A DNA stretch of 34,057 bases from Alistipes sp. (lineage in GTDB: Bacteria > Bacteroidota > Bacteroidia > Bacteroidales > Rikenellaceae): the NCBI GenBank assembly GCA_017505725.1, contig JAFVOR010000006.1, positions 1 to 34,057 of the forward strand, given 5' to 3'. The notes under the pieces are model-generated. The model was given only the letters and a program-made list of their open reading frames with translations, was not told the DNA's origin and made no database searches. Shown here in pieces: positions 3,365 through 22,192 of the stretch (positions are counted from its first letter, which is position 1; each line of letters starts with the position of its first letter). The translations under genes were made by a program, and so were the position numbers.

Positions 3365-3710
3365 CCATCCTTCTCCTCTTACACCCTCTTACAGCTCTTA
3401 CAAGGTTGCGTGCCTCTGTAAGAGTGTAAGAGTGTAAGAGTGTAAGAGGGGACTCCGAAGGTGGTCACGGCGCAACGATTATAGGATTTGATAGGATTTG
3501 ATAGGATTCGCACCTGCGGTGCTTGATAGGATGCGCTACAAAGTTCTGCTTCATCCTATTCCCTCCTATTTTGGTCATCTCGTTTTCCGTTTTCCGCTTT
3601 CCCTTACTAGCCCTTAAAAATAATTTTTAATTTTTAATTCTTAATTTTTAATTAGCCAAAGCCAATGGCCAATGGCTTCTAACAAAAAAAGTCCCCGAAG
3701 GGACTTTTTT
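3365..3710. repeat. Repeat-rich spacer between argH and pflA
   Basis: There is no gene. The spacer holds: 3372-3450, ctcttacac-type 9-mers followed by their inverse (gtgtaagag) repeats, able to fold into a long hairpin at the 3' end of argH; 3450-3535, a box B (3451-3476) with the taggatttga spacer and the hairpin GCACC-TGC-GGTGC; TTTTCCG units near 3591; a short cttactag array; an A/T 8-mer array (3617-3656); and the pflA terminator. Confidence 0.8.
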
Positions 3711-3711
3711 T
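3683..3711 (-). terminator. UUCG-loop terminator after pflA
   Basis: Read on the minus strand, AGTCCC-TTCG-GGGACT is followed by a run of T, beginning immediately at the pflA stop codon. An A-run precedes the stem, so it could also stop transcription arriving from argH. Confidence 0.85.
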
Positions 3712-4442
3712 TAGTTGACGAATACCGTCTTAAAGTATTCGTCAAACAACGCTTTGGCACGATCGAGTTGTTCGGGCGTATTCTCCTTCACGCCCTGCAA
3801 CTTATACTCTTGTCCCATAGCCTCGTACTTGTGTACTCCGAGGGTATGGTAGGGCAATATCTCGACTCGCTGCACCATCTCGAACTTGCCCAAGTGCTCA
3901 CCCAAGGCACGGATATCGGCCTCAGCGTCGCTATAGCCCGGTACAAGCACATAGCGCAACCAGAATGGCTTGCCATTGCGCTCAAGCCACTCCGCAGTAC
4001 GGAGAGTCTGCTCGTTGCTACGCTCGGTGAGGAGCTGATGTTGCGACGGGTTGTGTTGCTTGACATCGAGCAATACCAGGTCGACAATCGAGAATAGCTC
4101 CTCGACCCACTCGTTCCATACGGAACCATTACTATCTATACATATATGTATACCTTGCTCCTTGAGTCGCTTGCAGAGAGGTATCAACGCCTTCGCCTGC
4201 AAGGTAGGCTCACCACCACTGAAGGTGATGCCACCACGCTTGCCAAAGAAGGGCTTTTGGCTTACCGCCTGCTCAATGATGTGCTCAGCATCGGTCTCCT
4301 TAGCCTCGCCACACATATCTATCGTATCGGGGTTGGCGCAGTAGAGGCAACGGAAGTTGCAACCTTGCAAGAATACCACAAGGCGTAAGCCTGGGCCATC
4401 GAAGGTGCCCAACGACTCGTATGAATGTACTTTGAGTTTCAT
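3711..4442 (-). CDS. pflA: Pyruvate formate-lyase activating enzyme
   Basis: This radical-SAM enzyme uses a [4Fe-4S] cluster and S-adenosylmethionine to place a glycyl radical on pyruvate formate-lyase. The 243-residue length matches the family. The cluster motif is C28-x3-C32-x2-C35 (GCNFRCLYC), preceded by the FDGPGLR segment typical of glycyl-radical activases, with the GGEPTLQ motif further on. It lies 134 bp downstream of pflB on the same strand. The spacer contains a long inverted repeat that may lower activase expression relative to the lyase. A UUCG terminator follows the stop. Confidence 0.95.
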   Translation of the reverse strand: MKLKVHSYESLGTFDGPGLRLVVFLQGCNFRCLYCANPDTIDMCGEAKETDAEHIIEQAVSQKPFFGKRGGITFSGGEPTLQAKALIPLCKRLKEQGIHICIDSNGSVWNEWVEELFSIVDLVLLDVKQHNPSQHQLLTERSNEQTLRTAEWLERNGKPFWLRYVLVPGYSDAEADIRALGEHLGKFEMVQRVEILPYHTLGVHKYEAMGQEYKLQGVKENTPEQLDRAKALFDEYFKTVFVN

Positions 4443-4446
4443 AGGT

Positions 4447-4540
4447 ATTAATAAAATTAGGGAATTTAATGAAATTAGGGAGATTAAGGATAAGATTTCA
4501 AACCTCTAAACTCCTTAAACTCCCTAAATTCTCTAATGTC
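4447..4540 (-). repeat. Inverted 9-mer array between pflB and pflA
   Basis: ATTAGGGAATTTA (4456-4468) pairs with TAAATTCTCTAAT (4525-4537) with one mismatch. Inside it, TAAGGA pairs with TCCTTA, and attaggga-type units face ctccctaaa-type units. It forms an extended hairpin in the pflB-pflA intercistronic region. Confidence 0.7.
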
Positions 4541-4576
4541 GCTAACGCCCCTAACGACTCTAACGACTCTAATAAA

Positions 4577-6805
4577 TTACATTCGCTCGTGGAACGAACG
4601 CGAGATAACCTCTAACTGATGCTCACGCGAGAGCTTGGTGAAGTTCACTGCATAGCCCGACACACGAATGGTGAGCTGCGGATACTTCTCCGGATGCTCC
4701 ATAGCATCCATCAACATCTCACGATTGAGGACATTCACATTGAGGTGGTGTGCACCCTTTGTGAAGTAGCCATCCATCATTGTCACGAGGTTCTCGACAC
4801 GAGTAGCCTCGTCAACACCGAGCGACTTTGGTACAATCGAGAAGGTGTTCGAGATACCATCCTGCGAGTCACGATAGCGCAACTTTGCAACCGACGAAAG
4901 CGATGCCACAGCACCACACTTATCGCGTCCGTGCATTGGGTTAGCACCAGGAGCGAAAGCGATGCCCTTCTCACGACCATCAGGTGTAGCACCTGTCTTC
5001 TTACCATACATCACATTCGAGGTGATGGTCAAGAGCGACAATGTAGGCTGTGCGCCCTTGTAGATTGGGTGCTTACGCAACTCCTCGTTGAAGAAGTAGA
5101 CGAGGTCAACACCAAGGTGGTCAACACGATCGTCGTTGTTACCGAACATTGGGAACTCCTTCTCAATCTCGAACGACTCGGTGAGGCCGAGCTCGTTGCG
5201 CTTAACGGTAACCTTGCCGTACTTGATAGCCGAGAGCGAGTCGAGGGCAATCGACAAACCTGCAACACCATAAGCGAGGTTGATGCGTGGGTTGGTATCG
5301 ATGAGTGCCATCTGCGCCTTCTCGTAGTAGTACTTATCGTGCATATAGTGGATGATATTCATCGCATCGTTGTAGACACGAGCAATCTCCGAAAGTACCT
5401 TCTTGTAGTTCGAGAGCACCTCCTCGTAGTTGAGCAAGTCGCCCATCAAGGTTGGGATGCCCTTGACCATCTGTGTGCCGGTAATCTCGCAACGACCGCC
5501 GTTGATAGCGAGCAACAACGCCTTAGCCAAGTTGCAACGCGCACCGAAGAACTGAATCTGCTTACCGATAGCCTGGTACGATACGCAGCAAGCGATACCG
5601 TAGTCGTCGCAGAAGCGTACCTCACGCATAAGGTCGTCGTTCTCGTACTGAATCGACGAGGTGTCGATCGAAACCTTTGCACAGAACTCCTTGAATCCCT
5701 CAGGCAACTCCGGACTCCAGAGCACAGTCATATTTGGCTCCGGCGATGGGCCGAGGTTGTAGAGAGTCTGAAGGAAGCGGAACGAGGTCTTGGTAACCTT
5801 TACACGACCATCGTTGAAGCGACCACCGATAGCCTCGGTAATCCAGGTTGGGTCACCCGCGAAGATGTCGTTGTACGACTGCATACGAAGGTGACGCACC
5901 ATACGCAACTTGATTACGAACTGGTCGATAAGCTCCTGAGCGAACTCCTCGGTGATATTGCCCTTGTCGAGGTCATACTGGATGTAGATGTCGAGGAACG
6001 ACGAAACGTTACCGAGCGACATTGCAGCACCATCCTGCTCCTTGACAGCTGCGAGGTAGGCCATATAAACCCACTGCACTGCTTCTTGTGCCGATGTTGC
6101 AGGGCGGCTCAAATCCAAGCCATAGTACTCGCCCATAACGAGCATATCCTTCAACGCCTTGATCTGATCGGCCACCTCCTCACGAAGACGGATTGTAGCG
6201 TCAGTCATAGGCGAGAGGAGCTGCTTCTTATCCTCCTCCTTAGCCTCGATAAGGCGGTTGATACCGTAGAGAGCCAAACGACGGTAGTCACCGATGATAC
6301 GACCACGCGCGTAGTTGTCAGGCAGACCGGTGAGGAAGCCCAACGAACGGAACGAACGAATCTCCTCGGTGTAGACATCAAATACACCATCGTTGTGAGT
6401 CTTGCGGTAGTGGGTGAAGATATCCTTCACCTTCTCGTCGACATCTACGCCCTGCTCCTTGCAAGCACGCGCTACGACATTTATGCCACCAAAAGGCTTG
6501 ATAGCACGCTTTAAGAGCTCGTCGGTCTGCAGACCTACGATAAGCTCATTCTCCTGGTCGATATAGCCCGCCTTGTGCGAGGTGATGGTCGACACAGTCT
6601 TATTGTCGAGCGAACGCACGCCACCACGCGCACGCTCCTCCTCGAGTGCCTCGAGGCACTTGTTCCAAACTTTCAAAGTACGCTCCGATGGACCTGCCAA
6701 GAACGAAGCATCGCCATAGTATGGCGTAATGTTGGCCTGCACGAAGTCGCTCACATCGATTTTCGACTGCCACAGACCTGCCTTAAACTGCTTGTGAATA
6801 TCCAT
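4577..6805 (-). CDS. pflB: Pyruvate formate-lyase (formate acetyltransferase)
   Basis: This glycyl-radical enzyme converts pyruvate and CoA to acetyl-CoA and formate under anaerobic conditions. The 742-residue protein has the adjacent catalytic cysteines Cys406-Cys407 (GIACCVSYQ) and the C-terminal radical site RVSGYAV with Gly717, 25 residues from the end, as in E. coli PflB. The two vicinal cysteines argue for true PFL rather than a diol dehydratase or other glycyl-radical enzyme, which have one. It is the first gene of pflB-pflA and is preceded by a TATCTTTG promoter about 40 bp upstream. It implies an oxygen-sensitive fermentative lifestyle. Confidence 0.97.
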
Positions 6806-6843
6806 AACTTACCTATATTTATAATCTCTATATAATTCGTGCG

Positions 6844-6851
6844 CAAAGATA
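6844..6851 (-). promoter_or_regulatory. Bacteroidota -7 box for pflB
   Basis: On the minus strand TATCTTTG matches TAnnTTTG; the start codon is about 38 bp downstream. No clear TTTG -33 element is seen. Confidence 0.7.
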
Positions 6852-6869
6852 GTAAAATAAACGGAAAAC

Positions 6870-7261
6870 TGCAATAATGCAGAATGCAAAATTAAGGATT
6901 AAGGGCTAGTAAGGGCCAGTAAAGGCAAATAAGGGCTAGTAAGGGCAAGTAAGGGCAAGCAGAAAGCGCACCCCAATAAGCGAACGCAGTGAGCGCCCCC
7001 AGTAAACCCCAGTAACCCCCAGAAATCTCTGCGCCTTGACCAGGGTGGGAGTTCCCGCAACCCTCAGCCTCCCGCGCATCCTATCAAGCACCGCAGGTGC
7101 GAATCCTATCAAATCCTATCTAATCCTATAATCTCTGCGCCTTGACCACCCTTCGGAGTTCCCGCAACCCTTTGCGCCCTCGCGCACCCCTAACGACTCT
7201 AACGCCTCTAACGACCCTAACTCGTTGCGCCTTGACAACCTTCGGAGTTCCCAGAGCCTCT
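6870..7261. repeat. Repeat spacer between pflB and ostA-like gene, with boxes B2-B4
   Basis: There is no gene. From left to right the spacer holds one or two ATGC units, an array of (gctagtaagg) 10-mers (about 6903-6958), a (ccccagtaa) array with a gcgaacgcagtgagcgc hairpin (about 6977-7022), and three box B copies on the minus strand (7030-7055, 7136-7162, 7225-7251). B3 and B2 are separated by the taggattt spacer with its GCACC-TGC-GGTGC hairpin. B4 and B3 are separated by the gttagaggc spacer. Nothing else is recognisable. Confidence 0.8.
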
Positions 7262-10200
7262 TTACCTCAACGACTCTATCCACTCAATTGTTTCGTAGGT
7301 GAGAGTATCTGTTCGGTCACGCCACTCGCGACGACGGATATAGTCCGCCTTGCGCTGCTGCAAGAGTGCATTGATAGGGAAGAGTGGGCGTGTAAGATTC
7401 TGCTTCACAAGGCGTTGCGAAGGGCGCACAGTGCGTGTCACAATGCTATCCTGAGTAGGTCGACGGTTCGCCTCCCACTTGAAGTTTGGCAACTTGGTAG
7501 GTTGCGTCTCAGGTATCTTATCCATAGGATAGAAGGTGTATGTAGGGCTACCTCTGTAGGTGATGCCCGACACGGTCTGTCCCTCGATGTAGGAGGTCAT
7601 ATCGCCCGCCTCGATGTAGGCCATCAGCGTAATCTCCGGCGAATCCTCCTCCTGCATATAGTAGATGGTCTGCACATTGCTCTTCACATCGTTGCGATAC
7701 ATCTGACGATCACGGAAGTGGGCAGTCATCTCCTTACCCGTCACCTGGTTGTAGTGTGCGGTATCAATCTCCGATGCGGTGAGTGGCTTACCCTCAAAGT
7801 CAGCCCTCACAAGCTCGCTCTTCGCGGTGATGGCGTGTGCCACCTCGGAGGTTATCTGATTTGCACCATTCCACATCACAGGCGAGTGGTACATATGGAT
7901 TATTGAGTCGATGGTGGTTGTGGCGAGTGAGTCGCACACCGCCTGGAAGTCACTGCGATACATCTTCACACGGCGGAATGCACGAATCTGACGATAGAAC
8001 GAGTCGATATTCTCCTTCTCCTCCTTGGCCACCTGCGCTGGCGAAGGCACAGGCTTCGGGAAGAGTATCTCGAGCATCGAGTCGAGTTGTCGGTTGACCA
8101 GAGTATCGAGAGGATCAATCTCCGCCTTGAGCAACGAGTCCACACGAGCCAATGTTGCCGAGTCGGCCATCTGCACAAAGATGCCACGACGCTCTTGACG
8201 ACGAATCTTGCGACGTAGCTGCTCGAACTCACGCTCACGGCTCTTGGCGAGGTAGATCGAGTCACGCTCCGCCCACTTGCGATACTGCTCCACACGCTTG
8301 GCCTGACGGGCACGACCTATGCGGTCGAGCTTGGCATCGAGCGAATCCTGCTTCACGCGCTCAAACTCTGCACGCTCCTTGTCGGCAATAGCCGCAAAGT
8401 GCGCCTTCACCTGCTTGTAGGTCATCGTGTCGAACTTGGCAAGGGTATCGAGACGGGTGCTATCCGCCTTCAACGAGTCGGCCTTCAACGAGTCGGCCTT
8501 CAACGAATCTACCTTAACAGAGTCTACCTTGAGCGAGTCACGCCTCAACGAGTCGGTCTTTATGCTGTCAATCTTTGTCTTCAGACTATCGAGTTTGAGC
8601 GAGTCGACCTTGAGCGAATCGAGACGCACCGAGTCGACCTTCACCGAGTCGCGTGCGAGGAGTTTAGCCCTCTTGAGGCTATCCTTCACAAACTTCTCGC
8701 GCTCCTTGGCTATGCGCTCACGCTCTGCATCACGCACCTTTGCCTCACCCAGGAGTCGTTTGATAAGCGGCATACGCTCCGCCTGCTTTGCACGCAGTTC
8801 TGCCTCACGCTGATGGAGAGCCTCCTTCACTGCCCTGTTCAGGTCGGCAGTCTCCGCCTTGAGGAGTCTGCCACGCAGACGCTGTCCCTGCTTGGTGGTG
8901 TCGCTTGCCAACGAATCTATCAACTTGCGACGCAACTCCACCCTCTCGCGCTGAAGCTCCTCCTTGCTCTTTGGCTTCACCGCCACAGAGTCTCGCTTGA
9001 GTGCCACCGAATCTTGCTTGTGCGAGAGCGAATCGCTCTTTGTTGCCAACGAGTCGCTCTTGCCGAGCGGAGCACCCTTCTCGAGCGTTGCATCCTTGCT
9101 CTGAGCGGTTGGCTTGGCTGCGCTTGGCTTACCCTGCATAGCAGCTCTGCCCTCCATATCGCTCTTTGACGAGTGTTGTTGTCTTCCCCTCTGCGTATGT
9201 GGCTGACCACCTCGTTCGCCACCTCGTTCGCCACGCTTTGCACTCTGTGGACCCTTCGACATTGCGCCTCTGCCCTGCATCTGTGCATCTCCGCCAATCG
9301 GCTTATTACCCATCTGCATAGGCTTGCCACCCTGCAAAGCATTACCTTGCGGAGCATCACCCTGCTTCACACCATCCTTGGCCTCACCCTGCTCGGCAGC
9401 CTTGGCAGCCCTCTCGAGCGAATCCTTCAGCGCCTTCTCTATCTTCTCGCGGATAGGGAAGCGGGTGTTCACATACATCGAATCCGACGAGATGAAGACC
9501 GAGTCACCCTGTGTCGTATCGTAGCTTATGAGCGACGGATTCTTCGTCACAAAGACATTACCCGGCTCCTTCCAATACTCGCCCCAATCGCCAAAGAGGA
9601 GCATCTTCTGCACCCTGTCGTCAATCTGAATATTGCGCTTAAGGCGTGCATAGTTGCTATCACGATAGTAGTAGAGCGTATCGCACATCAGCTCCTGATC
9701 CTTGGTGAGGATGTAGCCATTCCGGGTGAGTGTGTAGAGTTGTGTCGCCTTGTCGTAGGTACCACCATCGGTGTAGAGGTAGTCATCCTCGGCTCGTGTA
9801 GCCTTCTGATCCTTGTTCCAAATATTGGTGCGGGTGAAGAACTGCGCATAGTTGGTCTCGGTGTTGTAGACCACCGAGTCGCTCAACATATCGTACTCGT
9901 TATTACGCATCTGCACATTGTCTACGCAGACAATCTCGTTGGTATCGGTGTAGACATAGCCTCGTTGCGACTCGAGTATGTTGTCGCCACTGATGAGGAC
10001 ACCTCCGCCGCTGTAGCGACCAATATTTGTCTTGGTGTTGAATGTGAAGTTGTAGGTCCATAGCGTAGCCTCGCCATCGACCACCTTGATGATGTTGGAG
10101 TAGACCTTCGCGAGGTTGGTCTCGCCATTGTACTCGGCTCTGTCGCCATAGATGTAGGTTGTACCTCGCTTGATGAGGACATTGCCGAAGCACTCGATGT

Positions 10201-10492
10201 GACGCTCATTGTAGCGCACCGCACTATCGGCCGTGATGACCGTACCGTTGTGATAGGCTGCGAAGTGCCCCACCACAACCATCACCTTCTGACCATTATA
10301 CTCCATCTGCCAGCCCTCGTCGGACTTCATATCGACATAGTCGCGCTTTGCCCTCTTGGGCGCAGCCTCAACCCTCTCCTCGCGTGGCTCGGCAGGTGCC
10401 GACACAAACGAAGGAAGGCCACTGCTACCCGCAAAGACCAGACTCGCTAACGCCACGAGCGCAATAAATATAGCTACTACCCTTCTCTTCAC
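7262..10492 (-). CDS. OstA/LptA-like envelope protein with giant low-complexity insert
   Basis: This is a probable LPS-transport/assembly protein of the OstA family. The 1076-residue protein opens with an N-terminal hydrophobic export segment (about residues 4-22). A stretch rich in repeated beta-strand patterns typical of OstA (for example VITADSAVRYNE and YIYGDRAEYNG) covers about 55-350, and a second OstA-like stretch covers about 845-1000 (HMYHSPVMWNGANQ and TAHFRDRQMYRNDV). Between them lies a ~490-residue charged region: Gly/Gln/Lys-rich at about 357-480, Arg/Lys/Glu-rich at about 510-610, and a DSLK-type 5-residue repeat at about 611-684. The family is usually much shorter, from memory. 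It is last in a three-gene operon, 9 bp after the SurA-like gene. Exact location and partners are inferred. Confidence 0.8.
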   Translation of the reverse strand: MKRRVVAIFIALVALASLVFAGSSGLPSFVSAPAEPREERVEAAPKRAKRDYVDMKSDEGWQMEYNGQKVMVVVGHFAAYHNGTVITADSAVRYNERHIECFGNVLIKRGTTYIYGDRAEYNGETNLAKVYSNIIKVVDGEATLWTYNFTFNTKTNIGRYSGGGVLISGDNILESQRGYVYTDTNEIVCVDNVQMRNNEYDMLSDSVVYNTETNYAQFFTRTNIWNKDQKATRAEDDYLYTDGGTYDKATQLYTLTRNGYILTKDQELMCDTLYYYRDSNYARLKRNIQIDDRVQKMLLFGDWGEYWKEPGNVFVTKNPSLISYDTTQGDSVFISSDSMYVNTRFPIREKIEKALKDSLERAAKAAEQGEAKDGVKQGDAPQGNALQGGKPMQMGNKPIGGDAQMQGRGAMSKGPQSAKRGERGGERGGQPHTQRGRQQHSSKSDMEGRAAMQGKPSAAKPTAQSKDATLEKGAPLGKSDSLATKSDSLSHKQDSVALKRDSVAVKPKSKEELQRERVELRRKLIDSLASDTTKQGQRLRGRLLKAETADLNRAVKEALHQREAELRAKQAERMPLIKRLLGEAKVRDAERERIAKEREKFVKDSLKRAKLLARDSVKVDSVRLDSLKVDSLKLDSLKTKIDSIKTDSLRRDSLKVDSVKVDSLKADSLKADSLKADSTRLDTLAKFDTMTYKQVKAHFAAIADKERAEFERVKQDSLDAKLDRIGRARQAKRVEQYRKWAERDSIYLAKSREREFEQLRRKIRRQERRGIFVQMADSATLARVDSLLKAEIDPLDTLVNRQLDSMLEILFPKPVPSPAQVAKEEKENIDSFYRQIRAFRRVKMYRSDFQAVCDSLATTTIDSIIHMYHSPVMWNGANQITSEVAHAITAKSELVRADFEGKPLTASEIDTAHYNQVTGKEMTAHFRDRQMYRNDVKSNVQTIYYMQEEDSPEITLMAYIEAGDMTSYIEGQTVSGITYRGSPTYTFYPMDKIPETQPTKLPNFKWEANRRPTQDSIVTRTVRPSQRLVKQNLTRPLFPINALLQQRKADYIRRREWRDRTDTLTYETIEWIESLR
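8455..8660 (-). repeat. 15-bp tandem repeat encoding DSLKA-type pentads
   Basis: Inside the OstA-like gene, 15-bp units (cttcaacgagtcggc on the plus strand) are perfectly repeated near 8465-8510 and decay outward. They encode repeated Asp-Ser-Leu-Lys-x. The near-identical units at the core suggest recent slippage expansion. Confidence 0.85.
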
Positions 10493-12849: not shown

Positions 12850-13226
12850 AATAAATATTGTAAGGGGGTTACTGGGGATTACTGGGGTGCGCGGGAGGCT
12901 GAGGGTAGTCGGGAACTCCGAAGGTGGTCAAGGCGCAAGTTTATTAGGGTCGTTAGAGGCGTTAGTGTCGTTAGGGGTGCGCTGAAGCGCAAAGAGGCTT
13001 TGGGAACTCCGAATGTGGTCAAGGCGCAACAGAATTAAGGGTTATTAAAGGCTATTAAGGGCTATTAAGGGTGCGCTACAAGCGCAAAAAACATTAATCA
13101 CCCTTAACTACCGTTACTAGCCCTTACTCGCCTTTACTAGCCCTTACTAGCCCTTCATTCTGCATTCTGCATTTTGCATTTTGCATTCTGCATTTTGCAT
13201 TCTGCATTTTGCATTCTGCATCCTCT
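12850..13226. repeat. Repeat spacer with boxes B5 and B6
   Basis: There is no gene. From left to right: (ttactgggg) units (12866-12893), a gggaggctgaggg linker, box B5 (12912-12938), the gttagaggc spacer with a GCGCT-GA-AGCGC hairpin, box B6 (13003-13030), the ggctattaa spacer with GCGCT-ACA-AGCGC, an acattaatcaccctta segment, a (cttactagcc) array (13108-13157), and about nine ATTCTGC/ATTTTGC units (13158-13222) reaching the stop codon of the epimerase gene. The last array is among the longest in the window. Confidence 0.85.
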
Positions 13227-14711
13227 CTACCTATAGTCCTCCGGCGTGGCAGTGCCATACTCCTCTCCGCCATCACCCTCGGGGCGCATCTTGTTCCACA
13301 CCTGCGCAAGGAACGGATTGCGCTTTGCCTGCTCGTCGAAACGCCAAGGTGCAGGGTCACACTCATCACACCAATGACCACCGAGAAGCACCAGCGCAGG
13401 TGAAGCCTCGAAGCGGTGACCGAAGGCACACTCCCACTCCAGCTTTGTGGCGAGGTCACCCTTGACCATACTCTGCGACAAGCACTTTCCACCACGGAAT
13501 GCTGCCGCCTGACGCATATCCTCGATGTCGAGCTCGGCCAACGGTTTGCTCTCGTCATATCCGTGCGAGAGTCGCTCAGCCTCCTCCATACCGGCAAGGC
13601 GAATCTCACACATCTGCTCCCACGAGCCTATCTTGCTGCGCTCCTCACGAGAGCCGAAAAAGGCCTTGATGCGAGGCTCGTTGTTGGTCTCAAGCCAACC
13701 AAGCGTACCGAACGTCTTATCCTTTGCAATGAGTCGCATGAAGGGCTTAATAACCCACGCAGGGGCAATCTTTGCCAACGAAAAGTACCAAGGCAACGTC
13801 TTTGCCATCTGCGCAAAGTAATCCGCAACGGGAACATTGGCACGGAAGTGGAGATACTCCTCGAGCTTGTCCGAATCGAGGTAGTACTGACCGTGAAAGT
13901 TGTGCGTTGCAAACCACTCCACATCGAAAATCTTCTCGGGCGCAGGGCAGTTGATGCACTTGAGCAGATAGCACTCGAAATCGTAGTTGGTAAGTCGGTA
14001 CTCCTCACCGCTACCTATATTGTAGAACTTGCACCAGAACTCCTCGGGCAGACCATCCTCGCAGAGGTTTGCAAGGAGTCGTCCCGAATCCTCGACTGTC
14101 GCCCACTCCAGCACGCCACGAATAGGCACGTGGAACATAATAGGGTCCATATTTTTGAGGATTGCAGGGTAGAGAATACCCGACTGACGAAGGCTTACCC
14201 AATGCTTCAATCCCGACTCGGCGAATATTCGCTCGGCGCGACATTTCGATATAGCGTAGTAGTCGAATATCGAGGGGAAAATCGGGTCACCCGTGCGTGC
14301 CCAATGGAGAGGCTCACGACGGTCACCCGTCTGCGCCACACTACCTATGTAGACCACCTTCACCGCGTCGCTATTTGGCTGTGCCTTAACAGCTTTCACC
14401 ACATTCTCGGCAGCCTTGACATTCACCTCGATAACGCTCTTGGGTTTGTAGTCGGCACGAGGCGAAACCATACCACCGACGTGAAGCACATAGTCGGCAC
14501 CCGTTGCACCTTTTAGAACATCGTCATAGCAGGTCAGATCGCCCCATACAACACGCACCTTGTCGCCATATTTTGCCATCAACTTGCGGTTACGCTTGCT
14601 CTCACGCACCAGCACCGTAATATCAAATTTATCACCTCTGCCGAGCAACTCGTTGAGTGTTGCTCCACCCATAACGCCCGTTGCTCCTGTAAGGAATACT
14701 CGCTTCTTCAT
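13227..14711 (-). CDS. NAD-dependent epimerase/dehydratase with C-terminal Cys-rich domain
   Basis: This is a short-chain-type sugar-nucleotide epimerase/dehydratase or related reductase; the substrate is unknown. The 494-residue protein has the Rossmann GATGVMGG motif at 9-16 and the YxxxK active site (YYAISK) near residue 150. Beyond the usual ~330-residue fold there is a C-terminal extension of ~150 residues, including a Cys-rich segment (about 427-451: WECAFGHRF then HWCDEC) that resembles a zinc-ribbon/treble-clef finger. It is probably co-transcribed with the CPBP protease gene 6 bp upstream. The extended form might be common in Bacteroidales; I cannot check that here. Confidence 0.8.
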   Translation of the reverse strand: MKKRVFLTGATGVMGGATLNELLGRGDKFDITVLVRESKRNRKLMAKYGDKVRVVWGDLTCYDDVLKGATGADYVLHVGGMVSPRADYKPKSVIEVNVKAAENVVKAVKAQPNSDAVKVVYIGSVAQTGDRREPLHWARTGDPIFPSIFDYYAISKCRAERIFAESGLKHWVSLRQSGILYPAILKNMDPIMFHVPIRGVLEWATVEDSGRLLANLCEDGLPEEFWCKFYNIGSGEEYRLTNYDFECYLLKCINCPAPEKIFDVEWFATHNFHGQYYLDSDKLEEYLHFRANVPVADYFAQMAKTLPWYFSLAKIAPAWVIKPFMRLIAKDKTFGTLGWLETNNEPRIKAFFGSREERSKIGSWEQMCEIRLAGMEEAERLSHGYDESKPLAELDIEDMRQAAAFRGGKCLSQSMVKGDLATKLEWECAFGHRFEASPALVLLGGHWCDECDPAPWRFDEQAKRNPFLAQVWNKMRPEGDGGEEYGTATPEDYR

Positions 14712-16469: not shown

Positions 16470-16518
16470 AGCAACAAAAAACATTTCTCCCAAAAGGGGA
16501 AATCGGAGGCGGTTAGAC

Positions 16519-16526
16519 TATTTTTG
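16519..16526 (+). promoter_or_regulatory. Possible -7 box inside module C copy 1
   Basis: TATTTTTG fits TAnnTTTG and overlaps the left arm of a module C stem. If used, the parB leader would contain the rest of the element. The same octamer occurs in the pth copy (27163-27170) but is AAATTTTG in the prfB copy. Confidence 0.35.
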
Positions 16527-16553
16527 TGCGTTACGCAGTAGTGGGAAACGCAA

Positions 16554-16633
16554 CCGACGCTGCGGAGCGAGGGCAGAGGGTGCTTGCACACTTTGCCGAG
16601 CCGCAAGGAGGAAAAGCCTGCGAAGCAGGATTA
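16554..16633 (+). repeat. Module A repeat, copy 2
   Basis: This 80-bp copy has central stem GTGC-TT-GCAC (16580-16589), different from copies 1, 3 and 4 but still paired. It is flanked by CAA on the left and TAA on the right, and it lies inside module C. Confidence 0.8.
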
Positions 16634-16736
16634 ACATACTCGACGTATGTGAGTATTCACACTGCAAGGAAGGTGCAAAAAGAGTCAACCGGAACGATTT
16701 AGGATGCAAAGAATAAAACGATAACAAGATATAATA

Positions 16737-17606
16737 ATGAAACAAGAGAAAGGATTAGGCAAGGGTTTAAGCGCCCTCTTTGGCGAGAATATCAAGGTTA
16801 GTTCAAAGCCAATGGCCGAGATGGTCGAGATTGCGCTCACGGATATCGTACCAAACCCTACACAGCCTCGTACCGAGTTTGACGAGGAGGCACTCGAGGA
16901 GCTGGCAGACTCGATTCGTCAGTTGGGACTCATTCAGCCCATCACAGTCAAGCGCGAGGGCGACAAATATATCATCATCAGCGGCGAGCGTCGCTGGAGA
17001 GCATCCGAGAGAGCGGGCCTGGTGAGCATCCCTGCCTACATTCGTGAGGTAGACGATACCACCCTCCACGCAATGGCCCTCGTTGAGAATATCCAGCGTG
17101 AGGATCTCAACGCCATCGAGATCTCGCTCGGTATGCAGCGACTTGTCGAGGAGTGCGGACTCACACAGGAGGCCTTGGCAGAGCGACTCGGCAAGAAGCG
17201 ATCGACAGTGGCCAACTACCTCCGTCTGTTAAACTTGCCCGAGGAGGTTCAATTTGCCATCAAGAGCGGACTCATCTCGATGGGACACGCCAAGGCTATC
17301 GCCTCGGTAGAGAGCAAGTCGAAGCAGCTCTCGTTGCTCAAGCGTTGCATCAAGAGCAACCTCTCGGTGCGTCAGCTCGAAGAGTTGGTACGCCTCGCTT
17401 CGGACAAGAAGAAAAAGGTTGCCACACCTGTTATCGACGAGGAGTATCCGGAGTCGTACAGTCGTTTGGTTGAGCACCTCGAGAAGTTCTTCTCGCAGGA
17501 TATCGCAATCAAGCGTGGCAAGAATGGCGGTGGTAAGATTATCATCGACTTCTCGTCGGATGCCGACATCGACAAGTTTATCAGCAAGTTTGCAAAGCAC
17601 AAATAG
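16737..17606 (+). CDS. parB: Chromosome partitioning protein ParB/Spo0J
   Basis: This is a CTP-dependent DNA clamp that loads at parS and spreads. The 289-residue protein has an N-terminal ParB/Srx domain with NPTQPRTEF, LGLIQPITV and the CTP-binding GERRWRA (about residue 83), then ENIQREDLN and a helix-turn-helix segment (TQEALAERLGKKRSTVANYL, about 141-160), and a C-terminal dimerisation region. The gene is followed after 3 bp by the DUF5683 gene and then mltD, making a segregation plus envelope operon. Module C copy 1 forms most of its upstream region. Confidence 0.95.
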   Translation: MKQEKGLGKGLSALFGENIKVSSKPMAEMVEIALTDIVPNPTQPRTEFDEEALEELADSIRQLGLIQPITVKREGDKYIIISGERRWRASERAGLVSIPAYIREVDDTTLHAMALVENIQREDLNAIEISLGMQRLVEECGLTQEALAERLGKKRSTVANYLRLLNLPEEVQFAIKSGLISMGHAKAIASVESKSKQLSLLKRCIKSNLSVRQLEELVRLASDKKKKVATPVIDEEYPESYSRLVEHLEKFFSQDIAIKRGKNGGGKIIIDFSSDADIDKFISKFAKHK

Positions 17607-17609
17607 AAG

Positions 17610-18875
17610 ATGAGGATATTGCGACATATAGCACAACCAAAGGGCAAGGGCATTACGCTTCTGCTCACCTTGCTGTTTGTTTGCATATCGTTCTCGAGCA
17701 ATGCACAGGTAAACCCATTTGCACGCGAGTTACGCAGCAAACGCACCATTGTGCGTGCAGGACAGATCTACACCCCCGACTCGTTGGAGGTGCGACGCAA
17801 CGACTCACTGCGTGTAGCAAAGTTGGCCGACACACTGCGTAAGCTTTCACCCGACTCACTTGCCAAGGTGGGCGAGATTGTGCGCAAGCAACTCCCCGAC
17901 TCACTCCGCAAAGAGATATTCGGTGCACCAAAGCTCGACTCACTCGCTGTGGACTCGCTAAAGCGTGATTCGCTGAAGATCGACTCCACACTCACCGAGC
18001 GTCAGCGCAAGCGCATCGAGAAGCGAGAGAATCGCACCCCATACTTCTCCGACTCGATGTCGTACCGCAGATTCACCCTCACCTCGGCAGTTCTGCCGGG
18101 CTATGGCCAGATCTACAACAAGCAGTATTGGAAACTGCCGATACTCTACTCCACTCTCGGAGCTTCGCTCGGTATGTGCATCTGGAGCGACACCAAGTAC
18201 AAGCCACTCAAGGCGCAGTACGAGAGCATCACCGACCAGAGTCTGCTCCGCACACCCGAGCTAAATGCCCTGCAGAGCGAGATGATAAAGTACAACACGA
18301 TGCGTCAGGCCTTTATGATTACGACCATCGCCTCGTATGTCTACTTCCTCGGTGATGCCGCAGTCAAGTACGCCACGAGTGAGGTGTCACCCGTAAATCG
18401 TGCCACCACACTTGCCCTCATCTGCCCGGGTGCCGGACAGATCTACAACAAGAGCTACTGGCGTGTGCCTATCGTGGTGGGAGGTTTTGCCACCACCATC
18501 TACTGTATCGACTGGAACAACCGAGGTTATCAGCGATTCAAGAAGGCCTACCGACTCAAGGCCGACTACGACGCCAACTCGCAACTCTACCCTAACGGTT
18601 CGCCCGACGAGTTTGCAGGTCGCTACAACACCTCGTTCCTCAAGAACCTTCGCAACAGCTATCGTCGTAACCGCGACTTGTGTATAATCCTCACCGCAGG
18701 ACTCTACATTCTTCAGGCTGTCGATGCCCACGTCGATGCACACCTGCAGAGCTACGACATATCCAAGGATTTGAGTGTAAGCCTCACACCTGCAATCGGT
18801 TACTCCTACAACCGTATGGCACCTTATAGCGGTGGAGGTACAACACTCGGTATGAACTTAAATTTCACATTCTAA
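17610..18875 (+). CDS. DUF5683 membrane protein with duplicated GQIYN segment
   Basis: The function is unknown. The 421-residue protein begins with a signal/hydrophobic segment ending near SNAQ (about residue 33). A linker of repeated DSL motifs follows (about 85-128: SPDSLAK, PDSLRK, DSLAVDSLKRDSLKIDS), and then the DUF5683-like membrane region. The LPGYGQIYNKQYW segment near residue 160 recurs as CPGAGQIYNKSYW near 272, each followed by hydrophobic stretches, and the C-terminal part has RRNRDL and DAHVDAHL. The C terminus ends in an aromatic residue. It is tightly placed between parB (3 bp) and mltD (3 bp), so a role near cell-wall or envelope maintenance is inferred only from context. Confidence 0.8.
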   Translation: MRILRHIAQPKGKGITLLLTLLFVCISFSSNAQVNPFARELRSKRTIVRAGQIYTPDSLEVRRNDSLRVAKLADTLRKLSPDSLAKVGEIVRKQLPDSLRKEIFGAPKLDSLAVDSLKRDSLKIDSTLTERQRKRIEKRENRTPYFSDSMSYRRFTLTSAVLPGYGQIYNKQYWKLPILYSTLGASLGMCIWSDTKYKPLKAQYESITDQSLLRTPELNALQSEMIKYNTMRQAFMITTIASYVYFLGDAAVKYATSEVSPVNRATTLALICPGAGQIYNKSYWRVPIVVGGFATTIYCIDWNNRGYQRFKKAYRLKADYDANSQLYPNGSPDEFAGRYNTSFLKNLRNSYRRNRDLCIILTAGLYILQAVDAHVDAHLQSYDISKDLSVSLTPAIGYSYNRMAPYSGGGTTLGMNLNFTF

Positions 18876-18878
18876 ACT

Positions 18879-20240
18879 ATGCAGCAACGCACTCTCGTAC
18901 TGCTCGTTTTGCTACTCCTATGCGCCCCTGTCACCTACGCAGCCAAGCGCAAGAGCAACAAAGAGCAGCAACAAACCGTCGTCATACCCGTCTACGACAC
19001 CATCCGCGTGGTGGTGACCGACACCATCAAGGTTGAGCCTAAACCCGCACCTCGCATCGACACGCTCCGCCTTGCTCACACCCCCGCCGAGATAGACTCG
19101 TTGGTCGAGGTGTGGTCGGCACTCCATCAGGCACAGGGCGAGAAGCGATTCTTCGAACTCTACAATGGTGATGCCGACTCGGTAGCATCGATGCCAGTGG
19201 ATACACTCTACAAGCGACGACTCCACGATATGGTATCGCCTGTGCATCTGCCCTACAACTACATCGTGCGCAACTACATCAACCAATACCTCGCAGGTCG
19301 CTGGAGTCCGTTGCGAAATGTTCTGGCACTCTCGGCATACTACTTCCCGATTATCGAGGAGATGCTCCACGCTGCCGATCTGCCTCTCGAACTGCGCTAC
19401 CTCCCCATCATCGAGTCGAACCTCTCGATTCGTGCCACCTCACGAATGGGTGCTGTGGGATTGTGGCAGTTTATGCCGGCTACGGGCAAGAATCTCGGTC
19501 TGGAGATCAACTCGCTGGTAGACGAGCGTTGCGACATCGTCAAGTCGACTCGCGCGGCGTGTCAATTCCTCAGCCACCTATATAAAGTATATGGCGACTG
19601 GACACTTGCCATTGCCGCCTACAACTGTGGCCCGGGCAATGTGAATCGTGCCATTGCTCGCGCGGGTACAGAGTGCAAGAGTTTCTGGGATGTCTACGAC
19701 TATCTGCCGAAGGAGACTCGAGGCTATGTACCGAAGTTCGTGGCTGCCGCCTACGCCTACACCTACCACGAAGCACACGGCATCACACCAGGCACCACAC
19801 CCGTATGCGTATCTACCGACACGGTGATGGTGCACAAGGTGATGCACCTTGGTCAGGTAGCCTCGACGCTCAACATCCCTATCGAGACGCTGCGTGACCT
19901 GAATCCGCAGTACAAGCTCGACATCATCCCTGCCACCACCAAGTCCTATGCACTGCGTCTGCCTACCCGCTACACCAGCGAGTTTGTCAGCCACGAGAAG
20001 GAGATTCACAGCAAGGACTCGCTCTACCTCAAGGAGTATATCAACCCCGCCAACCTTGAGAAGAAGCGTGCCGAGGGTGTGGGCTACATCTACACGGTGC
20101 GTAGCGGCGACAATCTTGGCCTTATCGCCAAGCGCAACCGCACCACCGTCAAGGAGATTATGAAGTGGAACAATCTCAAATCGACAGTTATCCGCCCAGG
20201 ACAGAAGCTCCGCATCGAGAAGCCAAAGCCGCGAGCGTAG
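18879..20240 (+). CDS. mltD: Membrane-bound lytic murein transglycosylase D-like, with LysM
   Basis: This enzyme cleaves peptidoglycan glycan strands to 1,6-anhydro products. The 453-residue protein has a signal peptide (to about YAAK, residue 22). An SLT domain covers about 160-285: the catalytic Glu is in YLPIIESNL (about 178), with GAVGLWQFMPATG and AIAAYNCGPGNVNRA. A weak LysM-like stretch lies at about 310-360, and a clear C-terminal LysM (YTVRSGDNLGLIAKRN, about 402-446) binds the glycan. It is the third gene after parB and DUF5683, separated by 3 bp. Confidence 0.92.
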   Translation: MQQRTLVLLVLLLLCAPVTYAAKRKSNKEQQQTVVIPVYDTIRVVVTDTIKVEPKPAPRIDTLRLAHTPAEIDSLVEVWSALHQAQGEKRFFELYNGDADSVASMPVDTLYKRRLHDMVSPVHLPYNYIVRNYINQYLAGRWSPLRNVLALSAYYFPIIEEMLHAADLPLELRYLPIIESNLSIRATSRMGAVGLWQFMPATGKNLGLEINSLVDERCDIVKSTRAACQFLSHLYKVYGDWTLAIAAYNCGPGNVNRAIARAGTECKSFWDVYDYLPKETRGYVPKFVAAAYAYTYHEAHGITPGTTPVCVSTDTVMVHKVMHLGQVASTLNIPIETLRDLNPQYKLDIIPATTKSYALRLPTRYTSEFVSHEKEIHSKDSLYLKEYINPANLEKKRAEGVGYIYTVRSGDNLGLIAKRNRTTVKEIMKWNNLKSTVIRPGQKLRIEKPKPRA

Positions 20241-20640
20241 TGAGAATGCAAAATGCAAAATGCAAAATTGAGAATGAAGGGTTAGTAAAGGCTAGTAAAG
20301 GCTAGTAAGGGGCGTTAAGGGTAGTTAATGGGAGTTAAGGGTGATTAATGTTTTTGCGCTTTAGCGCACCCCTAACGACACTAACGCCTCTAACCGACGC
20401 TGCGGAGCGAGAGCAGAGGGCAAACTTGTTTGCACTATGCCGAGCCGCGAGGAGGAAAAGACTGCTTCGCAGGCTTAACGACCCTAATTAACTTGCGCCT
20501 TGACCACCCTCGGAGTCCCCGCAACCTCTCAGCCTCCCGCGCATCCTATCAAGCACCGCAGGTGCGAATCCTATCAAATCCTATCAAATCCTATAATCGT
20601 TGCGCCGTGATGCCCTTCGGAGTCTCCTCAACCATCCCCC
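20241..20640. repeat. Repeat spacer downstream of mltD with boxes B7 and B8
   Basis: There is no gene. The spacer holds: ATGCAAA units (20246-20268); (ggctagtaaa) units (20279-20316); gttaaggg units and the attaatg segment; a GCGCT-TTA-GCGC-type hairpin near 20357; the gttagaggc spacer interrupted by module A copy 3 (20394-20477); box B7 (20493-20519, minus); the taggattt spacer with GCACC-GCA-GGTGC; and box B8 (20600-20627, minus). The order mirrors 12912-13222 read in reverse. Confidence 0.85.
20394..20477 (+). repeat. Module A repeat, copy 3 (inserted in a box B spacer)
   Basis: The central stem GCAAAC-TT-GTTTGC matches copy 1. The terminal hairpin is ACTGC-TTC-GCAGG rather than CCTGC-GAA-GCAGG, so the loop is in the opposite orientation. 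It is flanked on both sides by TAA within an otherwise continuous gttagaggc spacer. Confidence 0.85.
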
Positions 20641-20641
20641 A

Positions 20642-20676
20642 CAAAAAAGTGGAGATTCCCAAACGGAAATCTCCAC
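20642..20676 (-). terminator. Terminator of the small outer-membrane protein gene
   Basis: On the minus strand a GTGGAGATT stem (plus-strand 20649-20657 with 20668-20676) closes a short loop and is followed by TTTTTTG. It begins 22 bp after the stop codon. Confidence 0.85.
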
Positions 20677-20698
20677 CAAAACTTTGTACAAATCTATA

Positions 20699-21193
20699 TT
20701 AGAAGTGCCAAGTTGCCGAAAGAGCGACATTAGCAAAACCTGGGCCATAGATACCTACATGTTTTGTATCACCCGCATACTTACCAAAAGTGCCACCAAT
20801 TGCAATCATTGGCGAGTAGTCGAGAGCCAAACGAATAGGCACCTTGTTGAACTTGATACCGAACTTAACATCACCGGTAACACCACCATACATAAAGCCA
20901 CGGCTACCACCCAAGCTAGCACCAACACCAGCATCGAGGTACCACTTACCTACCGATGGAGTCCAATCCCAGTTGCAGCAGTTCCACTGGTGGAGAGCTG
21001 TAAAGTCAGCAGCAAGACCACCGAACAAACCGAGACGACCCTCAACATACTTATCCGACGAGTAGAAATACTCACCAACAGCCTGCACACCATAAGTTGC
21101 ACGGAGACCGGCAGCCCAGTTAGTCTTCTGAGCCGAAACGGTTGCTACACAAAGCACTGCTACCAAAACGAGAAAAATCTTTTTCATACGCAT
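20699..21193 (-). CDS. Small outer-membrane beta-barrel protein
   Basis: The function is unknown beyond a probable outer-membrane barrel. The 164-residue protein has a signal peptide (cleavage likely at SAQ, about residue 22). The mature part is rich in Gly and alternating aromatic/hydrophobic strands, such as AGLRATYGVQAVGEYFY and VKFGIKFNKVPIRLALDY, and ends in WHF with the terminal Phe typical of Bam substrates. Two cysteines are adjacent (NCCNW). Translation could begin at Met1 or at Met3 (21187); both keep the basic signal N-region. A strong TTTG-N19-TAAATTTG promoter and a terminator make it a single-gene unit. Confidence 0.8.
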   Translation of the reverse strand: MRMKKIFLVLVAVLCVATVSAQKTNWAAGLRATYGVQAVGEYFYSSDKYVEGRLGLFGGLAADFTALHQWNCCNWDWTPSVGKWYLDAGVGASLGGSRGFMYGGVTGDVKFGIKFNKVPIRLALDYSPMIAIGGTFGKYAGDTKHVGIYGPGFANVALSATWHF

Positions 21194-21249
21194 AAAAATT
21201 TAGATGTTAATAAATATAAGTATTACTATTTTTGCCAATTTTCCTATTG

Positions 21250-21280
21250 CAAATTTAGTTTTTTTTTCAGAAACTGCAAA
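21250..21280 (-). promoter_or_regulatory. Promoter of the small outer-membrane protein gene
   Basis: On the minus strand TTTG (21277-21280), 19 bp, then TAAATTTG (21250-21257): an exact Bacteroidota arrangement. The leader is about 55 nt. Confidence 0.85.
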
Positions 21281-21358
21281 TAATTTCAATATTTTTTATA
21301 GCAAAAAATCGCCATAGACCAAATTGAAAAACTATTTTCGATAAATCTTGGTTGAAAA

Positions 21359-21389
21359 TTTGCAAGTAACGAAATTTTCACTACCTTTG
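21359..21389 (+). promoter_or_regulatory. Promoter of tRNA-Val
   Basis: TTTG (21359-21362), 19 bp, then TACCTTTG (21382-21389). The tRNA begins 17 bp after the box. Confidence 0.85.
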
Positions 21390-21405
21390 CACCCGCAAAC
21401 ACAAA

Positions 21406-21480
21406 GGGAGCTTAGCTCAGCTGGTTTAGAGCATCTGCCTTACAAGCAGAGGGTCGGGGGTTCGAATCCCTCAGCTCCCA
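21406..21480 (+). tRNA. tRNA-Val (anticodon TAC)
   Basis: The acceptor GGGAGCT pairs with AGCTCCC. The D-arm is GCTC...GAGC, the anticodon arm TCTGC-CTTACAA-GCAGA gives anticodon TAC, and the T-arm is GGGGG-TTCGAAT-CCCTC. The discriminator is A at 21480 and CCA is not encoded. It has its own promoter and terminator. Confidence 0.97.
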
Positions 21481-21487
21481 CAAAATC

Positions 21488-21517
21488 AAGACGACTTCTT
21501 CAAGTCGTCTTTTTTTG
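21488..21517 (+). terminator. Terminator after tRNA-Val
   Basis: AAGACGACTT-CTTC-AAGTCGTCTT is a 10-bp stem followed by a run of T. Confidence 0.92.
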
Positions 21518-21760
21518 TGTCCGCTTCGGGCTTCGTTCAGCTGGTGGCGGTGTGGCAGAGTTGTCTGCGCTGTGTGCGTATGCGAGATAGTCATTGTTGC
21601 TACGCAACTACGATAGCAAATTAAATCTCATCAGCTCAAATAAATTTGGCTGCTGCTATTTAATTCACTCTCTAAAACCCGAGGGTTTTAATGCCTATCT
21701 CTCACACTCCGTCGCTTGCTCTGCTCAAACCTGCGGCAGCCGTTCGAATCCGAGGTGTCG
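21518..21760. other. Unexplained spacer with long imperfect dyad
   Basis: No gene is found. Several inward-facing complementary pieces are present: GCAGAG with CTCTGC, GAGATAG (about 21584-21590) with CTATCTC (about 21694-21700), and ATAGCA with TGCTAT. There is also a perfect TAAAACCC-GA-GGGTTTTA hairpin (21673-21690). The left part (GGTGTGGCAGAGTTGTCTGC) looks like the D-arm region of a Ser/Leu tRNA and the right end has GTTCGAATCC, but no tRNA can be folded. Confidence 0.4.
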
Positions 21761-22192
21761 GAGACTCCGAAGGTGGTCAAGGCGCAACAAATTTAGGGTC
21801 GTTAGAGGCGTTAGAGTCGTTAAGGGTGCGCGGGAGGCTGAGGGTTGAGGGAACTCCGAAGGTGGTCAAGGCGCAACGATTATAGGATTTGATAGGATTT
21901 GATAGGATTCGCACCTGCGGTGCTTGATAGGATGCGCGGGAAGCTGAGGGGTTGTCGGGAACTCCGAGGGGCATCACGGCGCAACAGAATTAAGGGCTAT
22001 TAAAGGCTATTAAGGGTTATTAAGGGTGCGCTACAAGCAAAAGAAAAAAAACATTAATCACCCTTAATCACCCTTAATCACCCTTAACTACCCTTAATCA
22101 CCCCTAACGACCCTAACGCCTCTAAAATAATTTTTAATTTTTAATTCTTAATTTTTAATTTTTATCGCCCTTAAAAAACCCTTACAGAAATA
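21761..22192 (+). repeat. Three chained box B cassettes (B9-B11) and trailing arrays
   Basis: The region holds box B9 (21762-21788), the gttagaggc spacer, a gggaggctgagggttg linker, box B10 (21850-21877), the taggattt spacer with GCACC-TGC-GGTGC, a gggaagctgagggg linker, variant box B11 (21958-21985), and the ggctattaa spacer. Then come attaatcaccctta units (22052-22105), ctaacgac units and an A/T 8-mer array (22129-22163). This is the longest chain of cassettes here. Confidence 0.85.

Follow-up and report, generated by a model that had tools for sequence, protein, structure and literature searches.

In neisserial NIMEs, a 20-bp dispersed repeat, dRS3, and RS repeat families form intergenic arrays, as set out in excerpts of the published account (PMC3898611). 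Pneumococci and S. suis have BOX, an intergenic element built of modules, in which the ends are fixed and the middle varies; alternative modules occur in S. suis, and BOX is considered mobile and non-autonomous (PMC3049150, in extract). The BrickBuilt MITE of Porphyromonas gingivalis contains a 23-bp repeat of a single kind, a leader and a tail, and has IS5-type ends GAGACC... (PMC4596501, in extract). REP sequences are GTAG/CGTC-tagged palindromes (PMC3733652, in extract).

The repeat described here was studied in a 34,057-nt stretch of an Alistipes sp. genome (contig JAFVOR010000006.1), hereafter the window. Measured against the excerpts cited above, it is similar to NIMEs in that a fixed tag, the box, is combined with many partner repeat families, the spacers, between genes. 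However, dRS3 has the form ATTCCC-N8-GGGAAT, whereas by-eye comparison reveals no such inverted ends in the box consensus GGTTnTGnGAACTCCGAAGGTGGTCAAGGCGCA, and the RS partners are families of 30–160 bp, whereas the spacers are typically built of four tandem units and end in GCGC. With BOX, compared by the architecture given in published descriptions (boxA-boxB(n)-boxC), the repeat shares modularity, an intergenic location, a fixed end module and a variable middle. According to the same extracts, BOX carries a pair of end modules, its boxB is copied as a single unit and it is enriched between convergent genes, whereas here there is usually one end module, several unlike middles, a preference for four small units, no strong fold of box plus spacer and an even orientation to genes. 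BrickBuilt, as far as its extract describes it, is likewise a Bacteroidetes intergenic repeat with tandem units within a MITE frame, but its ends and units do not match by eye, and the best repeat lags in the spacers are 9–11 bp as against its 23-bp repeat. REP/BIME and REPIN are also high-copy mosaic extragenic repeats; the box, however, is not a GTAG/CGTC-tagged palindrome in the sense of the extract, and no Y1/RAYT gene was found in eight box genomes. No description of a box/spacer element was found in the open-licence PMC literature on repeats of Alistipes, Rikenellaceae and Bacteroidales/Bacteroidetes or in the 10 listed of 47 papers on intergenic mosaics. The element seems comparable to neisserial NIMEs and pneumococcal BOX, appears different in sequence and looks new among such mosaics.

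Boxes and arrays in the window

All 11 boxes located by a preliminary description of the window are present at those positions. In one table of boxes from the wider set, some on the minus strand are displaced by one base. An ungapped scan with the pattern RACTCYGAAGGTGGTCAMGGCGCA, allowing up to three mismatches, recovered eight of them; in 100 shuffles of the window, the mean was 0.00 and the maximum 0 matches. The other three have more than three mismatches, with one additional central base (7136–7161) or a replaced centre (7030–7054 and 21959–21983). The box had been described as 26 bp long. It is real, but its firm core measures about 24 bp, is preceded by a weaker GGTTNTCGG-like lead-in and includes a variable 9-bp centre between the conserved arms ACTC and TCAMGGCGCA. 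A fixed boundary had been set as a test beforehand, and the inner edge GGCGCA is 97–100% conserved per position in 201 copies, with free sequence beyond it; these copies were picked by similarity to the box (up to five substitutions), a selection that favours a fixed edge, and one of them, kept in the set, is probably a chance match within a gene (L035, position 938).

The box is directional. On the plus strand, a box at 3450–3474 is followed by a type B spacer with taggatttga units, a CGCACCTGCGGTGC palindrome and a GCGC end (3475–3536). The next array is on the minus strand and, in the reading direction of the box, comprises a box (7226–7250) with a type A spacer of gttagaggc units (7182–7225), the box with the additional base and a type B spacer (7074–7135), and the box at 7030–7054, whose centre is replaced by CCCACCCTG, with a type D spacer of ttactgggg units and a GCGCTCACTGCGTTCGC palindrome (6966–7029); beyond the array lies a C-rich tail of 10-bp units (6891–6955, minus strand). 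On the plus strand, a type D spacer remnant with no box (12868–12893) precedes a box (12913–12937) with a type A spacer (12938–12982) and a box (13004–13028) with a type C spacer of ggctattaag units (13029–13076), onto which a C-rich tail (13092–13150) folds back (fold of 13030–13148, z −6.7). A second minus-strand array contains a box with a GGGCAT centre (20601–20625), a type B spacer (20539–20600), a box (20494–20518) and a type A spacer (20364–20493) broken by another dispersed repeat (about 20394–20477). The last array, on the plus strand, runs from a box (21762–21786) through a type A spacer (21787–21831), the linker gggaggctgagggttgagg (21832–21850), a box (21851–21875), a type B spacer (21876–21937) and the box at 21959–21983 to a final type C spacer (21984–22031), again with a C-rich tail folding back onto it (22051–22118; fold of 21985–22103, z −6.6).

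The boxes had been said to lie only between genes. In the window, this holds with respect to open frames of at least 90 aa for every box except 20601–20625, which overlaps the opposite-strand open frame 20600–21283; this frame looks spurious, because the strand opposite to it encodes a signal-peptide-like protein. Of 196 boxes in the full set of fetched stretches, 10 nominally lie inside an open frame of 110 aa or more. Tabulated against the flanking genes, orientation is even (31/31/28/26; 141 arrays minus 25 at stretch edges), and a gene-linked terminator or regulator was rejected on this ground. Boxes point in alternating directions along the window, and for this reason a replication-polarity signal of the Chi or KOPS kind was dismissed.

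An RNA family, one of the options raised earlier, was not borne out in the frame of box plus spacer: folding was no better than that of shuffles (median z 0.31 and −0.30 in the two strands, n = 174), and no Rfam family was found. The lowest group medians were −1.8 (spacer alone, type H) and −1.0 (reverse strand, type D). At the gathering threshold, Rfam returned tRNA only. In E-value mode, used for one array, the matches with E < 1 were eukaryotic microRNA hairpins far below threshold, which are taken to reflect the long foldback. A resemblance between box and 5S rRNA was considered and dropped; no 5S appeared in the Rfam scans. Type C together with its C-rich tail does fold far beyond shuffled sequence (four examples gave z of −3.3 to −6.7, and 37 copies a median of −3.8), and some boxes stand right behind an apparent intrinsic terminator (noted by eye at L081, L099, L110 and L128). 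Both observations would suit a functional RNA or a host gene-control element under selection, such as a structured RNA, terminator, Rho site or attenuator. Against the even orientation, the shuffle-like fold of box plus spacer in both strands, the absence of an Rfam family and the lack of the element at most orthologous gene ends, such a role is quite improbable.

Spacer types and the four-unit length

The four spacer types recognised earlier were recovered (A 4, B 4, C 2 and D 1 in the window). In the fetched stretches of this genome, 11 type A, 25 type B, 22 type C, 12 type D and 5 unclassified spacers were counted, and in all at least eight families follow the box, the unit types being sorted with hand-made patterns that left 24 of 201 boxes unclassified. 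The dependence of box-to-box distance on spacer type was reproduced in the fetched stretches of this genome, the window included: 82, 89, 89, 89, 90, 90, 90, 91 and 92 bp for type A, and 105–108 bp in 15 of 15 cases for type B. The right end required correction, since GCGC, previously assigned to a hairpin following the spacer, is the end of the spacer itself. It is within reach in 191 of 201 spacers, preceded by T (125), A (51), G (13) or C (2), although the spacer end was located by searching for GCGC and is to that extent a matter of definition.

Once inserted palindromes are removed, spacer length corresponds to four G-rich units of 9–10 bp in 151 of 201 cases, the unit sequence varying by type; the other 50 deviate from this length. 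The palindromes are optional and sit at unit junctions. Each counted palindrome adds about 15 bp to the raw spacer length (medians 44, 58, 73 and 89; slope 14.7; 198 of 201 spacers). Both this count and the constancy of the stripped length are partly tuned, as the pattern list was built by hand from the same data. The G-strand repeats resemble short telomeric runs: TTAGGG, TTATGGGG, TTTAAGGAG and TTCTAGGGG.

An intramolecular G-quadruplex could arise from four G-rich units, its loops holding the palindromes as hairpins. On the box strand, 198 of 201 spacers contain more G than C, four G-runs of at least two bases occur in 162 of 201 stripped spacers, and a G4Hunter score of 1.2 is reached by 81% of type D and 100% of type F and H copies, F and H also scoring above their shuffles. 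However, the threshold is reached by 48% of type A and 0% of type B, C, E and G copies, the scores of A–E and G do not exceed those of dinucleotide shuffles, and an AAAGG unit is usually kept in type C and a GTG or GAG unit in type A of this genome. As a common principle the G-quadruplex was rejected, because four of eight types never attain the score, and a DNA-structure element of this kind is very unlikely. It is similarly a remote prospect that a folded single strand serves in making or reading the cassettes: four G-strand repeats would be counted with the palindromes looped out, and all units of one spacer would change together between families, as would fit templated (reverse-transcriptase-like) synthesis or a single-strand transposition step behind the fixed box. 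We know of no such spacer-writing system in bacteria.

Type C is never followed by a box in the genome of the window (0 of 20, P = 3.7e-7); in genome G070 (SIG186), a box does follow one of eight type C copies, which counts against type C closing the arrays. Some type C copies have the ends GGCGCA...TTGCGCC, which may correspond to terminal inverted repeats of the MITE kind. G070 also contains five convergent box pairs, with a box at either end of 212–234-bp elements, and a sixth pair, 247 bp apart, whose arms are unlike. This MITE-like arrangement is the ground for regarding the box as a recognised end. Most copies have a single box and not two, which counts against a mobile element. Cassettes measure approximately 70–250 bp and, judged by length and open frames, are short, multi-copy and without coding capacity, as MITEs are.

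Distribution and exchange of spacers

A box profile run on this and related genomes, as had been proposed, revealed a multi-copy family. Among 91 genomes of the genus, 10 have matches, a single one in two cases, whereas 59 other genomes of the order have none. Matches per genome numbered at least 77 (G000), at least 77 (G070), 76 (G057), 54, 50, 45, 17, 3 and 1; the remaining 82 genomes of the genus comprised one with a weak match (G042, E 0.005) and 81 with none. No match was found in viral contigs searched with one exact pattern, or in plasmids and phages searched with one array of this genome, and a viral or plasmid origin was rejected on that basis. Most gene ends adjoining the window boxes are box-free in relatives, although at most sites a single flanking gene was matched and the other neighbour often differed, which is weaker than a true empty site. 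The intergenic DNA of sister species is too diverged to align, and no target-site duplication was read in it.

Spacers differ within one genome, and the earlier view of the repeat as modular and not simply duplicated was upheld: of five genomes tested, four show no association between the variant of the box and the type of its spacer (p = 0.46 in this genome), the exception being G070, with a weak link (p = 0.03). Spacers are more alike than the boxes preceding them in 9 of 11 genome-type groups, most strongly in type B of this genome (identity 0.967 versus 0.806, n = 23); the other two groups, type A of this genome (0.813 versus 0.861) and type B of G057 (0.889 versus 0.889), have no such excess. 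At several sites common to different species, the box is kept and the spacer differs. At one site, the box is present in five species and most of the spacers differ, and two pairs share both flanking genes and, within 1 bp, the box distance, with spacers D and C (L110/L128) or B and D (L101/L122). Other sites speak against exchange: type D is unchanged at one site in three species (L108/L148/L156), and type C recurs at an epimerase site in this genome and G005 and at another site in this genome, G070 and G078. Spacer replacement at common sites could also be imitated by independent insertion into one hot spot.

These data bear on plain segmental duplication with replication slippage, in which box and spacer are copied jointly and the repeats expand and contract with no exchange. 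Tandem arrays with a near-constant period within each type, the 50 spacers of deviating length and the weak linkage in G070 agree with it, as does the location of 14 of 52 box matches in this genome within 200 bp of a contig end, where repeats tend to lie and where the element matters for genome assembly. Yet slippage would be expected to scatter unit numbers, whereas the four-unit length prevails (151 of 201 spacers), and neither the free assortment in most genomes, nor the excess likeness of spacers, nor the different spacers behind a box at common sites suits joint copying, which makes this explanation improbable. A rather unlikely alternative is a mosaic formed at the box as the crossover site of a dedicated, putative site-specific recombinase. 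The conserved arms of the box around a variable centre, the same free assortment and the analogy to dRS3 (PMC3898611, in extract) would fit, but neither arm is an inverted copy of the other, and ungapped searches bias towards a fixed centre length, one window copy having an additional centre base. The cassette is supported as a pattern, and an active exchange machinery remains putative.

The repeat is probably a non-coding, non-autonomous intergenic mosaic element of one group of Alistipes-like species, to which mobility and an enzyme are ascribed by inference. The box with its GGCGCA would be an end recognised by a host- or IS-encoded enzyme, and copies would insert between genes whichever way these point. 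What lies behind an occupied box may then be replaced through recombination or gene conversion with other copies, or through re-insertion, anchored on the left by the box and on the right by GCGC and the linker. Such replacement would let spacers spread through the genome independently of their boxes and let arrays grow at the linker. Arrays usually end with a form that has two arms, either type C plus the C-rich tail or type G with two boxes. Neither a transposase nor a recombinase nor an autonomous relative came to light, the search covering the Y1 transposase family only: PF01797 was detected in none of the eight box genomes first surveyed (drafts of 85–92% completeness), 1 of 91 genomes of the genus and 5 of 14 control genomes. 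A RAYT/Y1 transposase was rejected as the mobiliser, being absent from the box genomes searched.

To our knowledge, bacterial intergenic mosaics (NIME, BOX and BIME) are known as patterns, and the recombination of their parts is poorly understood. The mosaic element of Alistipes-like species has a sharp, testable grammar of a constant end, interchangeable middles, four preferred units and uncounted palindromes, and close relatives offer sites that are filled, lack a box or are filled differently. Such an element could be a tractable case for the exchange of short non-coding modules within a chromosome.

Copies, distribution and anatomy of the box

All 11 boxes previously described in the window were recovered; the chance expectation for the box pattern is 0.00. 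The source genome (2.36 Mb, 105 contigs) contains 52 matches to the 20-bp core at up to three mismatches, with one match to the reversed pattern, and at least 77 matches to the box profile. A scan of genome contigs with one exact box pattern returned 15 stretches from six MAGs, each titled Alistipes sp. or Rikenellaceae bacterium; the named sources of two of them are sheep colon and water deer rectum. The window would accordingly derive from a relative of Alistipes. At up to two mismatches, the box was found in 8 of 150 genomes (the source genome included), all among the 91 same-genus genomes, and in none of the 59 genomes of the same order outside the genus. The profile matched 10 of the 91 same-genus genomes, with at least 77 (source genome), 54, 17, 50, 76, 3, at least 77 and 45 matches per genome and a single match each in G058 and, weakly, G042. 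In a one-protein tree of 14 genomes, with moderate support at most forks, the eight box genomes group together with G058; the two label changes were equalled in 1 of 500 shuffles. Viral contigs gave no match to one exact box pattern, and plasmids and phages gave none to one box array.

The anatomy was derived from 201 boxes of eight genomes. A weak GGTTNTCGG-like lead-in is followed by AACTC, a variable centre and GTCA-M-GGCGCA, with the GGCGCA conserved at 97–100% per position. Behind the box lies the spacer and then GCGC, located in 191 of the 201 cases and preceded by T in 125. Hand-made patterns split the spacers into eight unit families, leaving 24 of 201 unclassified: A (GTTAGAGGC), B (TAGGATTTGA), C (TTAAGGGCTA), D (TTACTGGGG), E (TTTAAGGAG), F (ATAGGGGTT), G (AATGGCA) and H (CTAGGGGTAC). 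The quadruplex score was passed by 81% of D, 100% of F, 100% of H and 48% of A spacers, and by 0% of B, C, E and G.

Other repeats occur nearby. A second dispersed repeat (...CGACGCTGCGGAGCGAGAGCAGAGGG...GGAGGAAAAG...) lies at about 20394–20477 of the window, and also at 15–101 and 16548–16634. Its copy at about 20394–20477 splits the type A spacer that belongs to the box at 20494–20518, and the GTTA of that spacer seems to stand on both sides of it, like a short duplication. A GAGCGAGAGC(A/T)GAGGG-like end directly precedes several boxes in source-genome stretches (L014, L020, L030, L032). A 15-bp repeat, CCTTCAACGAGTCGG, is present at 8452–8656 within the long OstA/LptD-like gene (7262–10492), and two more repeat pairs, at 31874–31958 and 30497–30626 (30-bp and 60-bp units), lie outside open frames of at least 90 aa. 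By eye, further short tandem units (TTTTCCG, TCTCGTC, AATTGAC, TTTTGCA, CTCACTA) abound in the intergenic DNA of several species, and which of them are prominent varies by species among the fetched stretches.

Spacer interchange and presence at gene ends

The proposal that one box with different spacers constitutes a modular element was supported as a pattern. In the source genome, the mutual information between box variant and spacer type was 0.185 versus a shuffled mean of 0.184 (p = 0.46, n = 70); the middle also assorts freely in the same-genus genomes G057 (p = 0.82), G005 (p = 0.99) and G078 (p = 0.26), the exception being G070 (p = 0.03). The 23 full-length type B spacers of the source genome share 96.7% pairwise identity, and the boxes preceding them 80.6%. 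Spacers were more alike than boxes in 9 of 11 genome-type groups and equally alike in one (type B of G057); source-genome type A was the sole group with spacers less alike than boxes (0.813 vs. 0.861).

The interval between the epimerase-family gene (13227–14711, PF01370) and the next gene carries a box in the source genome and four of eight near relatives. There the source genome has spacers A and C plus a D remnant, G057 has GGGGTTATT-like units, G049 has D with palindromes, G070 has A and G005 has C. The box is missing from G068, G078, G058 and G047 (the latter with an altered neighbour) and from the more distant loci displayed (G022, G081, G030). Two pairs of fetched stretches with both flanking genes shared likewise differ in spacer: D and C in L110 and L128, where 56 and 55 bp separate the box from the gene end, and B and D in L101 and L122 (81 and 80 bp). 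There are counter-cases: L108, L148 and L156 all have D, with one extra palindrome in L156, and type C is common to the source genome and G005 at the epimerase site and to the source genome, G070 and G078 at the cluster 11 site. The 22 shared gene-end entries include single sites seen from both flanks, several one-flank entries and some unclassified spacers. L108, L148 and L156 come from three species that have a 91–92% identical flanking protein and closely resemble one another in the intergenic DNA surrounding the box, a likeness which may reflect recent exchange.

At other gene ends beside the boxes of the window, a box was found in none of four relatives with the orthologous gene on the 3′ side of the lyase (argH-like) gene, one of six (G070) on the 5′ side of the pyruvate-formate-lyase gene, one of seven (G049) on the 3′ side of the SLT/LysM gene (an eighth locus, in G058, stops at the gene) and none of three on the 3′ side of the GH3 gene. 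These uneven occurrences at orthologous gene ends, in one-flank comparisons of 300–520 bp per site with genes named by Pfam and the second neighbour often different, suggest that box gain and loss are quick.

Arrays, two-armed forms and possible mode of exchange

Box-to-box distance varies with spacer type in the source genome, as the preliminary description had stated: 82–92 bp for A (9 cases) and 105–108 bp for B (15 cases). Array orientation relative to flanking genes is even (31/31/28/26; of 141 arrays, the 25 that lie at stretch edges are unclassed). The suggested RNA family is not supported for the box-plus-spacer frame, which folds no more stably than shuffles on either strand (n = 174).

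No next box follows type C in the source genome (0 of 20, P = 3.7e-7; two further copies lie at stretch edges), and one follows 1 of 8 in G070. C-rich units behind type C pair with its spacer, and spacer plus tail folds with a z of −6.6 and −6.7 for two window copies, −5.9 for one in G070 and −3.3 for one in G047. Among last-in-array copies, the median z was −3.8 for type C (n = 37); type G reached −2.6 (n = 9), the medians of A, B, D, F and H lay between −0.3 and −1.7, and that of E was +0.45 (n = 4). Five convergent box pairs in G070, 212–234 bp apart, have the box as a terminal inverted repeat; a sixth, at 247 bp, has unlike arms.

The element combines a fixed end, a freely assorting middle, uneven presence at orthologous gene ends and two-armed forms. 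It is probably mobile, and an enzyme would recognise its box or GGCGCA. Recombination or gene conversion, with the box and the GCGC/linker as anchors, could swap the middle, or re-insertion could replace it, perhaps behind terminators, a position that some boxes occupy as judged by eye; middle exchange and hot-spot re-insertion cannot be separated at species-level sampling. In architecture the element resembles NIMEs (PMC3898611) and BOX elements (PMC3049150) in how it works, under rules of its own; the box does not match the dRS3 pattern of NIME. The element may be a MITE, with inverted ends in one species (G070). A RAYT-linked REP was rejected, RAYT/Y1 transposase having no match in the eight box genomes.

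Preference for four units per spacer

Spacers prefer four units, to whose length palindromes are added. Median raw length was 44, 58, 73 and 89 where 0, 1, 2 and 3 palindromes were recognised (n = 100, 53, 38 and 10), and 44, 44, 41.5 and 40.5 once these were removed. Stripped length fell within 38–48, equal to four units, in 151 of 201 spacers (16 shorter, 34 longer), and G-runs numbered four in 114 of 201 and three to five in 179. Mean unit identity within a spacer, at the best lag, was 0.60–0.79 in seven types and 0.49 in type G, mostly exceeding that between different families at the same positions (0.34–0.60; F/H 0.68). Since units are mostly more alike within a spacer than between families, a spacer's units have changed in concert, with their count remaining close to four. 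This joint change at a near-constant count is the most surprising feature of the element and goes beyond the preliminary description.
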